A stretch of 64,000 nucleotides of DNA. Origin: Mycoplasmatota bacterium (GTDB lineage: Bacteria > Bacillota_I > Bacilli_A > Haloplasmatales > Haloplasmataceae). The DNA lies in contig CP074573.1 in NCBI GenBank assembly GCA_018394295.1, positions 1,240,001 to 1,304,000 on the forward strand, written 5' to 3'. Shown here piece by piece: positions 15,177 to 58,298 of this stretch; the first letter of the stretch is position 1, and each line of letters begins with the position of its first letter. The notes beneath the pieces were generated by a model. The model was not told the DNA's origin and ran no database searches. It saw nothing but the letters and a program-made list of their open reading frames with translations. The position numbers were made by a program, and so were the translations under genes.

Positions 15177-15180
15177 CATA

Positions 15181-15209
15181 AAAAACCTATTTTTTAATAG
15201 GTTTTTTTA
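15181..15209 (+). terminator. Terminator after efp
   Basis: Stem AAAAACCTATT / AATAGGTTTTT with four-base loop and T run. Confidence 0.9.
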
Positions 15210-15497
15210 AATGATTCTTTGATTGTTAATTTTTTTACTAAATCTATCTATTTTTAAAAAAAATTATCAATTTTAGTTATTTTTTTACTTTTTGTTTCAT
15301 TATATTAGTAATAGCCTATGTAATAAATAGTACTAGTGTAAAATAATTTGTTTAAAGTTATTTTCATTTCTAATGAAAAAAAGAATTTTTCATAGCGAGA
15401 ATTCAAATTTTTTTGAAGAAAGTGTAAATATTAGTATTATTTTCAACTTAAAAATCATATTTTTTAATAAAGATAATTTGAGGAGGTTATTATTTTT
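15210..15497. other. Intergenic region where spoIIIAA-AG would be expected
   Basis: AT-rich, no open frame of note; contains the spoIIIAH leader and a GAGGAGG ribosome site at its right end. No recognisable remnant of spoIIIAA-AG. Confidence 0.6.
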
Positions 15498-15995
15498 ATG
15501 AAACCACAAGGTAAAGTTACTATTTTTATGGTAGTGATGATAGTGATGCTATCAATATACTACTTTATGCTTCCTGATAACAAAAACGTTGATGTAGGAA
15601 CAACTACTACAGATCAAACTGATGTAACAATAAATAAATCTGCAGAGTATGAACAATTACGTGCAGAATTAAATGAAAGTCGACAAACAATGATTACAAC
15701 CCTACAAGGTGTTTTAGCATCAACAAATGTTACAGTAGAAGACAAGAATGTTGCAATTGAAAGCATTCAAAGGATTCAAACGCTTGTTCAAAACGAAGGT
15801 ATCTTAGAAACACAAATTGCTAATCTTGGATACGATGATGTATTTGTTCTAGCGAATGATACAGAAGTAAAAGTATCAGTGTATGTCGATAATTTAACGA
15901 TTGAAGAAGTGAATCAGATCATATTAATGTCTAAAAGCCAATTTGGTCCAACCGCTGATGTCATCGTACAATACACAATAATTGATGTAAATTAA
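15498..15995 (+). CDS. spoIIIAH: SpoIIIAH-like stage III sporulation protein
   Basis: 165 residues: short N-terminus, one membrane helix (VTIFMVVMIVMLSIYYFML, about residues 7-25), then an acidic/threonine linker, a helical segment (YEQLRAELNESRQTMITTLQ) and a ring-building-motif-like C-terminus ending SQFGPTADVIVQYTIID. This is the architecture of SpoIIIAH, the mother-cell half of the channel bound by forespore SpoIIQ. It lies between efp and asp23, as in Bacillus, but the other seven spoIIIA genes are absent here. Somewhat shorter than the B. subtilis protein (about 218). Confidence 0.82.
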   Translation: MKPQGKVTIFMVVMIVMLSIYYFMLPDNKNVDVGTTTTDQTDVTINKSAEYEQLRAELNESRQTMITTLQGVLASTNVTVEDKNVAIESIQRIQTLVQNEGILETQIANLGYDDVFVLANDTEVKVSVYVDNLTIEEVNQIILMSKSQFGPTADVIVQYTIIDVN

Positions 15996-56005: not shown

Positions 56006-57193
56006 AATTATTTCGCTAAATTCAATTTAAGTGTTGATATTTTTTTATTGTTACATCTATGATGTAATAAGTCACTTTATAATGAAATTATAAAGTGAGG
56101 TAATTAGAATGATAAATAAAATAGATTTAATTAATGAATTAAATAAACTATCTATAAAGAATTATGAAGATGTTTTTAGTTTCATTATGTCTTTCAATAA
56201 CCCTATAGAATCTAAAAGCGATATTTGTTTGAATTGTCCACATTGTGGTTCAGTTGAGTTTGTTAAAAATGGAAAAACAAACAAAGGAATTCAAAGATAC
56301 ATTTGTCGCGAGTGTAATAAATCATTTTGTGATACATCTAACACTCTTCTTTATAGAAGTAGATGTACTGAAGATATATGGTTAAAATTTATTGATTGTG
56401 AAATATCAGGATTATCTTTAAAAGAAACTGCTTATTATAATAATTTAAGTGTCACAACTTGTTTTTATATGCGACATAAGCTTTATAAAGCAATCAGAAA
56501 CTTAAAGATGAAAGAAACTTTATCTAGTAAAGTTGAATTAGATTGTATTTATACAAAGATAAATCTTAAAGGAACCAAACCATCAAATATGCCTAGACAT
56601 AGTAAAAAGAGAGGTAATACATCTGCATATTCAGGTATATCTCATCACAAAGTATGTATTGTCGCTGCAATCGATGAAAATGATAATATGTTGCTTGAGA
56701 TAGCTGGAGTTGGATCGGAATCAATGGAAAAATACACTAAATATACCGATAAATTTATGGATACAACTTTAATTATTTCTGACAGTAAACCATGTATTCA
56801 ACAATTTGCGAATAATTTAGGTGTTAAGAATGATAAAGTTCCTGTGATAGCTAATAAAAAACGTTATACTACTAATCTAGGTAATAGTTTAGGTGATATT
56901 AATCAATTGGCTACCGGGATTACTAAGATTATAAAAAATAGTCATGGTGTATCTATAAGACATTTACAAGATTACTTATCATTTTACCTATATAAAAAAC
57001 AATTACATTATAGAACTAATCGAAAAGATCATGCAAATATAATGTATAACTTATTAAAATACAATCATCATTTATCTAATAAGGATACGTTAAATTTTGA
57101 TTATCCAATATCTTTAAAAGATGCTTATTATGAATATCGATATGGGATTTTTGCATAATCATCAACACTTAAATTGAAAAGAACGAATTATTT
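56006..57193 (+). mobile_element. IS1595-like insertion sequence with 8-bp target duplication
   Basis: Element 56014-57185 (1172 bp) flanked by AATTATTT at 56006-56013 and 57186-57193. Terminal inverted repeats of 25 bases (56014-56038 and 57161-57185) match at 21 positions, with an identical inner core TTCAATTTAAGTGTTGAT. Eight-bp duplications are usual for IS1595. One intact transposase inside. Confidence 0.93.
56109..57158 (+). CDS. IS1595-family transposase
   Basis: 349 residues. N-terminal zinc ribbon (CPHCGSVEFVKNGKTNKGIQRYICRECNKSF), helix-turn-helix (SLKETAYYNNLSVTTCFYMRHK), then an ISXO2-like catalytic domain: first Asp in KVELDCIYTKINLKG, second in LIISDSKPCIQQ, then RHLQDYLSFYL where the family has the HLQxYLnEF segment. 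GAGGT ribosome site. Appears complete. The E of the usual VDETY is C here and YLNEF is YLSFY, so it is a divergent member. Confidence 0.88.
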   Translation: MINKIDLINELNKLSIKNYEDVFSFIMSFNNPIESKSDICLNCPHCGSVEFVKNGKTNKGIQRYICRECNKSFCDTSNTLLYRSRCTEDIWLKFIDCEISGLSLKETAYYNNLSVTTCFYMRHKLYKAIRNLKMKETLSSKVELDCIYTKINLKGTKPSNMPRHSKKRGNTSAYSGISHHKVCIVAAIDENDNMLLEIAGVGSESMEKYTKYTDKFMDTTLIISDSKPCIQQFANNLGVKNDKVPVIANKKRYTTNLGNSLGDINQLATGITKIIKNSHGVSIRHLQDYLSFYLYKKQLHYRTNRKDHANIMYNLLKYNHHLSNKDTLNFDYPISLKDAYYEYRYGIFA

Positions 57194-57301: not shown

Positions 57302-57310
57302 CATATGATA
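57302..57310 (+). promoter_or_regulatory. Sporulation-type -10 element of the first YjcZ-like gene
   Basis: CATATGATA, 40 bases before the ATG; fits CATAnnnTA of mother-cell sigma-K type promoters. Shared with the next two genes. Confidence 0.45.
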
Positions 57311-57341: not shown

Positions 57342-57449
57342 ATGGAAGGTGCAGGTTACGGTTATGGTTATGGTTACGCAATTGTATTAGTTCTATTTAT
57401 TTTATTAGCTATCATTGGATGTGCATGCTACTCAGGATGGGGATGCTAA
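57342..57449 (+). CDS. YjcZ-family tiny sporulation membrane protein, copy 1
   Basis: 35 residues: Gly/Tyr repeats (MEGAGYGYGYGY), helix AIVLVLFILLAIIG, then cysteine-rich end CACYSGWGC. The core matches the tiny single-helix YjcZ/tiny_TM_bacill peptides of spores. AAAGGAGG site 7 bases upstream. Unlike classical YjcZ, the C-terminus carries three cysteines. First of three similar genes. Confidence 0.85.
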   Translation: MEGAGYGYGYGYAIVLVLFILLAIIGCACYSGWGC

Positions 57450-57851
57450 TTAAACTCTGAATATTCTCTTACATAACTAACAAATGAATTCAATTAGATA
57501 AATAGAATTCCTCCGTTTCGTTTATCTAAATTTTAATAATAATTTATGAATTTATCGTTTTGAAGATGAAGTTAACGATTTAGTTTTTATAACTAATAAC
57601 AAAAAGCAATAAAACAATACCAATAATTTTTAAGTTGATGTGATAATAAATGGTTCTTGTAATCACAAGAACCATTTTTTATATTTTTAAACTTTTTAAT
57701 TAATCCATATTTAATATAAAACATAATATATATCAAGCCTTAAATCCTCAAGAATATCCTGACTTATCATCATAAGATTACTGATTTAATCAGTAATCTT
57801 AATTAATTAAAGATAAATTTTATTTTAATAAAAATTAGTTACATCAGGCTA
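57450..57851. other. Gap between YjcZ-like copies 1 and 2
   Basis: No gene seen. Holds a terminator (57648-57683) and a 27-base odd-centred palindrome at 57774-57800 (arms AAGATTACTGATT / AATCAGTAATCTT). Nothing else recognised. Confidence 0.6.
57648..57683 (+). terminator. Terminator after YjcZ-like copy 1
   Basis: Stem AAATGGTTCTTGT / ACAAGAACCATTT with AATC loop and T run. Confidence 0.88.
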
Positions 57852-57887
57852 TTTCACTATAAAATAATATAATTGATACATATAATA
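57852..57887 (+). promoter_or_regulatory. Candidate sporulation promoter of YjcZ-like copy 2
   Basis: TTTCAC (57852-57857), 21 bases, CATATAATA (57879-57887), 37 bases from CATA to ATG. Same layout as copy 3. Confidence 0.5.
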
Positions 57888-57915
57888 TATTAATAAAACC
57901 GAAAGGATGATCTGA

Positions 57916-58002
57916 ATGTCTGGTGGATATTGTTATAATTTATTTAGTATTGTTTTAGTATTATTTATCTTACTAGCGATTATAGGATGTACTTGCTGCT
58001 AG
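57916..58002 (+). CDS. YjcZ-family tiny sporulation membrane protein, copy 2
   Basis: 28 residues, MSGGYCYNLFSIVLVLFILL followed by AIIGCTCC. Same helix as copies 1 and 3; the Gly/Tyr head is shorter and the tail ends CTCC. GAAAGGATGAT site upstream. Its own terminator follows. Confidence 0.82.
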   Translation: MSGGYCYNLFSIVLVLFILLAIIGCTCC

Positions 58003-58024
58003 TAAAAAAATTCAAATGATGAGT

Positions 58025-58056
58025 AGGAACTACTGTTAAGAGTAGTTCTTTTTTAT
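58025..58056 (+). terminator. Terminator after YjcZ-like copy 2
   Basis: Stem AGGAACTACT / AGTAGTTCTT (one G-T) and T run. Confidence 0.85.
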
Positions 58057-58114
58057 CTAGGTATATGTATAAGATAAAGACTTAATTTTCATAAAATAAA
58101 CAAATAATAAACGA

Positions 58115-58150
58115 TTTCACTATAAAGAATTAACACTACTACATATTATA
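58115..58150 (+). promoter_or_regulatory. Candidate sporulation promoter of YjcZ-like copy 3
   Basis: TTTCAC (58115-58120), 21 bases, CATATTATA (58142-58150), 37 bases from CATA to ATG. TTTCACTATAAA is shared word for word with copy 2. Confidence 0.5.
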
Positions 58151-58178
58151 AAGTGACCTAGTAGAAAGGGGGATTACT

Positions 58179-58298
58179 ATGGCTAACGGTATTGCTGGAG
58201 GATATGGATATGGAAATACATATGCAATTGTTTTAGTATTATTTATCTTACTTGCTATTATTGGATGTGTTTGTTATTCTGGCTTTAGTTGCTGCTAA
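58179..58298 (+). CDS. YjcZ-family tiny sporulation membrane protein, copy 3
   Basis: 39 residues: MANGIAGGYGYGNTYA head, helix IVLVLFILLAIIG identical to copies 1 and 2, tail CVCYSGFSCC with four cysteines. AAAGGGGG site upstream. Ends at a hairpin shared with the convergent FMN-binding gene. Confidence 0.85.
   Translation: MANGIAGGYGYGNTYAIVLVLFILLAIIGCVCYSGFSCC

Follow-up and report, generated by a model that had tools for sequence, protein, structure and literature searches.

Tandem cysteine-tailed YjcZ-family genes in a Haloplasmataceae genome and their proposed role in sporulation

Can three very small open reading frames, lying one after another in the genome of a member of the Haloplasmataceae, be genuine genes, and what might the cysteines at the ends of their products be doing? 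YjcZ peptides are named among those annotated membrane proteins of ≤50 aa that occur frequently (PMC11796252), and their function has been stated to be unclear (PMC12756439). Work on B. subtilis placed yjcZ in the sigma-K regulon (PMC517825), and three YjcZ genes of Priestia megaterium were among the most up-regulated, alongside cotE and ssp genes (PMC12756439).

Results and Discussion

Identity of the three genes

A sequence-only reading of the 64-kb window (the whole stretch of DNA analyzed) had described three tiny tandem YjcZ-like genes with cysteine-rich tails, and its coordinates, lengths and sequences all proved correct (Table 1). The products of genes 1, 2, and 3 (MEGAGYGYGYGYAIVLVLFILLAIIGCACYSGWGC; MSGGYCYNLFSIVLVLFILLAIIGCTCC; MANGIAGGYGYGNTYAIVLVLFILLAIIGCVCYSGFSCC, respectively) contain an identical IVLVLFILLAIIGC and are built alike, with a Gly/Tyr-rich head, a single hydrophobic helix (IVLVLFILLAIIG) and a short Cys tail. 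Each gene starts with ATG and has its own Shine-Dalgarno sequence upstream. The proposed family membership was borne out by two curated profiles, whose cut-offs all three peptides exceed: Pfam PF09680 (YjcZ_2; E = 1.8e-8, 5.3e-7, and 2.4e-7; 34.2, 29.6, and 30.7 bits for genes 1, 2, and 3; cut-off 21 bits) and NCBIfam TIGR01732 (tiny_TM_bacill, labelled “YjcZ family sporulation protein”; 26.5, 22.4, and 27.2 bits; cut-off 21.35 bits). The size of 28–39 aa, the one hydrophobic helix, the Gly-rich head and the presence of several paralogues are also those of YjcZ proteins. The three genes are genuine, conserved members of this family (PF09680/TIGR01732). That most annotation pipelines miss genes this small was an overstatement, as an NCBI model exists and one B. 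cereus annotation names five YjcZ copies (PMC8313275). Scans of the window for Rfam families and tRNAs returned nothing, and a plasmid search gave no match.

Table 1. Positions, within the window, of the three genes and of their promoter-like and terminator-like elements
Feature	Position	Strand	Product or sequence	Basis
Mother-cell sigma-like -10 box of gene 1	57302..57310	+	CATATGATA	
YjcZ-family gene 1	57342..57449	+	35 aa, tail CACYSGWGC	Pfam and NCBIfam profile matches, orthologues
Terminator-like stem-loop, about 200 nt past gene 1	57648..57677	+		
-10-like box of gene 2	57879..57887	+	CATATAATA	
YjcZ-family gene 2	57916..58002	+	28 aa, tail CTCC	Pfam and NCBIfam profile matches
Terminator-like stem-loop after gene 2	58025..58050	+		
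-10-like box of gene 3	58142..58150	+	CATATTATA	
YjcZ-family gene 3	58179..58298	+	39 aa, tail CVCYSGFSCC	Profile matches, syntenic orthologues in G001/G004

Orthologues and duplication history

Orthologues of gene 1 adjoin plsY in a congeneric genome (G001) and in two genomes from other genera (G003 and G004), and the ribosome-binding site context is identical in the orthologues of these three genomes. Between gene 1 and its G001 orthologue there are 9 synonymous differences over 24.7 sites and 1 non-synonymous over 80.3 sites, and between the G001 and G003 orthologues 12 and 0; in the pairs with G004 a difference in head length distorts the substitution counts. Gene 1 is, judging by these counts, under strong purifying selection. 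The three gene-to-gene comparisons of the shared core gave 9, 8, and 4 synonymous vs. 1, 2, and 2 non-synonymous differences. For gene 3, syntenic orthologues occur in G001 and G004, and constraint is weaker than on gene 1. Gene 2 probably arose by recent local duplication of gene 3, since G001, the nearest relative, lacks an orthologue of it at the corresponding position and since gene 2 resembles gene 3 in both upstream and coding sequence. The arrays of G001 and G004 have three genes each, including the two orthologues of genes 1 and 3, and two genes are visible at a contig end in G003; the array therefore varies between relatives. Conservation of the reading frames in relatives, on which the sequence-only reading had let its proposal depend, was thus found for genes 1 and 3, but in G001 not for gene 2.

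An IS1595-like transposase (Zn_ribbon_InsA, weak DDE_Tnp_IS1595) is found between plsY and gene 1, at 56109–57158. The arrangement suggests a recent insertion immediately before gene 1, because in G001 (L055) only about 150 nt, with no transposase, separate plsY from the gene 1 orthologue.

Copy number and cysteine tails

The sequence-only reading had suggested looking for further copies, and a search with the family profile found ten YjcZ copies over the cut-off in the genome. Copy number ranges from 1 to 13 per genome in 16 of the 40 relatives. A DNA pattern for the helix had no match anywhere in the genome, probably owing to codon divergence. Four of the copies form a cluster at C1:962292–963106 (within C1:962277–963175, L051:4278–5176), in which heads are Cys-rich (GCCEPTYCCC) and one member lacks tail Cys; similar clusters occur in G001 (L056), G003 (L065), and G004 (L069). 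Ten additional matches in G000:C1 (31-aa open frames, e.g., 307839–307871 and 3194655–3194687) fell below the cut-off with identical 12-bit scores and were not counted as YjcZ; they are probably copies of one repeated element. The genome also carries several MreB copies, as would be in keeping with Haloplasma.

In an alignment of 38 proteins nine helix columns were invariant and both cysteines of a C-x-C motif were at least 90% conserved. The set of 62 distinct Haloplasmataceae proteins includes 57 with tail Cys and 56 with a C-x-C after the helix, and Cys makes up 25% of the tail residues vs. 5% of those of the head. Four of the five without tail Cys have one head type (e.g., GRGYLFALLLVLFILLVIIGKTN) and look orthologous. 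Outside the Haloplasmataceae, 42 proteins were compared, 27 of them with tail Cys, 18 with C-x-C and 15 with no tail Cys at all, so the cysteines are not essential to the basic role of the family. The Cys tail is a clade trait of the Haloplasmataceae and no oddity of this locus. The claim that terminal cysteines are atypical survives at most relative to Bacillus: they are near-universal in the Haloplasmataceae and occur as well in Paenibacillus, Brevibacillus, and Aneurinibacillus.

The YjcZ proteins of these last three genera (L078, L079, L080, L084, and L085) have the same helix followed by C-x-C (e.g., IIACACWW, IIGCSCDDC), although their heads are less Gly/Tyr-repetitive. Those of family f11 genomes (L031, L034, L050, and L096) share the helix, the tandem copies and the Cys-rich tails, but their heads are longer and contain Cys and their Gly/Cys tails are much longer. 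With the family at large, B. subtilis YjcZ included, the peptides have in common the Gly/Tyr-rich head, the one hydrophobic helix with an LVLFILL core, a length of mostly 25–60 aa, several paralogues per genome and the link to sporulation; what differs here is the near-universal C-x-C of the Haloplasmataceae and the ten copies in this one genome, B. subtilis YjcZ being compared by description only. SscA, a small coat assembly protein of B. subtilis, is a possible relative.

Promoter-like boxes

The motif CATANNNTA is a -10 box common to mother-cell sigma factors. Of the 49 Haloplasmataceae copies, 40 have it in the 110 nt upstream, vs. 4.1 expected (first-order Markov control, mean 4.1, maximum 10). 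At -34 to -46 from the start it was found in 36 of these 49 vs. 5 of 97 control long ORFs from the same loci (p = 5e-18, a generous value because the copies are paralogues and some of the controls are operon-internal). Upstream of the box of gene 1 there is an AC at 17 nt (AC-N17-CATATGATA), which is the sigma-K promoter arrangement. In genes 2 and 3 the AC is 21 nt upstream of the -10-like box, with no clean fit to sigma-E or sigma-K spacing, and across the set the -35 region is weakly conserved (A[AC]TA about 20–23 nt before CATA). For these two reasons, the spacing in genes 2 and 3 and the preference of the set, we take the promoters to be of mother-cell type and make no choice between sigma-E and sigma-K. 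A CATA box precedes cotE (at about -40) and cotZ (at about -30) in this genome and there is no -10-like box upstream of its spoIVA, so that the motif is uncalibrated on known targets here. The stem-loops after genes 1 and 2 fit separate transcripts; a possible third (AAAACTACCGTTAAAGCGGTAGTTTTTT) after gene 3 was seen by eye and is absent from the scan output.

Link to sporulation

The window itself contains spo0A, spoIVB, spoIIM, and spoIIIAH. The genome encodes SpoIVA, CotE, two sigma-E/K-like factors, and a 154-residue protein of the CotZ family that contains 19 Cys. All 16 YjcZ-positive genomes among the 40 relatives have SpoIVA. Across 295 genomes of the phylum, 29 have both YjcZ and SpoIVA (that is, 29 of the 31 YjcZ-positive ones), 2 YjcZ only, 9 SpoIVA only, and 255 neither (p = 6e-30, which overstates independence because the genomes are kin). 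In G167, one of the two YjcZ-only exceptions, the match is interrupted by a stop. Since nine SpoIVA-positive genomes have no YjcZ match, the family cannot be a general requirement for sporulation. The tie to sporulation that had been suggested thus found support in the profile families, the co-occurrence with SpoIVA and the enrichment of the promoter-like box.

Two side observations concern the sporulation genes themselves. Four genomes of family f21 (G122, G242, G295, and G303) have SpoIVA and no YjcZ match; by this lack of match, YjcZ would be lost, replaced or too divergent in them. The gene for SpoIIIAH (15177–15995) follows efp immediately, leaving no space for spoIIIAA-AG, and neither SpoIIIAA nor SpoIIIAE gave a credible match when the eight Haloplasmataceae genomes, of which all eight have SpoIVA and seven have CotE, were searched with profiles. 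This lineage may have a reduced or highly divergent SpoIIIA channel.

Proposed role and alternatives

The region contains many random ORFs of similar size, and the three frames could be of the same kind; we consider the probability of this practically nil in view of the family scores, the synonymous-biased divergence, the conserved ribosome-binding site and the synteny, which refute it for genes 1 and 3, the case for gene 2 being made by its family score and the paralogue comparison. They could also be small membrane toxins of type I toxin-antitoxin systems, which they resemble in size, in the single helix and in tandem duplication. We have rejected this reading as highly improbable, given the curated match to YjcZ, the almost complete confinement of YjcZ to spore formers, the promoter box of mother-cell type and the empty Rfam scan.

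The main rival, because Cys-less members of the family exist, is that these are spore membrane peptides working through the helix, in membrane remodelling or anchoring, with tail cysteines that are incidental or serve only in metal or lipid binding. SpoVM, a tiny membrane-bound coat anchor, is a broad parallel. The helix is the most conserved part (the nine invariant columns), members without tail Cys retain it, and head and tail vary greatly in length. However, a C-x-C that is nearly invariant in the Haloplasmataceae would be unlikely if it were incidental, and we give this explanation only a minor share of the probability.

Our preferred reading, which we regard as likely, is that the genes encode mother-cell sporulation peptides with one helix, at the outer forespore membrane or the base of the coat, whose cysteines could form cross-links or bind metal. 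Beyond the observed family membership, conservation, promoter-like box, association with spore formers and tail conservation, we infer a spore location, a topology, expression in spores and a cysteine chemistry, as follows. The three genes would be transcribed separately in the mother cell during sporulation and the peptides would insert into the outer forespore membrane or a hydrophobic coat base, with head and tail serving as small interaction patches. As the spore matures, the C-x-C at the helix exit and the extra cysteines would form disulfides, between peptides or between peptide and coat, or would bind metal. That a Cys pair at the exit of a helix anchored in the membrane or coat base could be cross-linked in the spore is proposed by analogy with the disulfide-linked lattices of unrelated Cys-rich spore proteins: the spore envelopes of Bacillus and Clostridium are built by disulfide cross-linking of such proteins (PMC7333573). 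The self-assembling exosporium proteins CsxA, ExsY, and CotY offer a possible functional parallel in this respect, but they have no sequence relation to the YjcZ peptides, are far larger and form a two-dimensional lattice.

Significance

It is conceivable, if rather doubtful, that the expanded Cys-tailed YjcZ set of the Haloplasmataceae forms a layer of the spore near the membrane that is thiol-linked or metal-bound; in the literature we found no structural layer role of this kind for any YjcZ protein. The kind of system is itself already known, and what is new here is the clade-wide Cys tail together with the large copy number. The tie between YjcZ and sporulation is extended to a lineage adjoining the wall-less Bacilli (PMC10868615), and the near-constant C-x-C right after the helix in one clade provides a concrete, mutable handle on YjcZ function.
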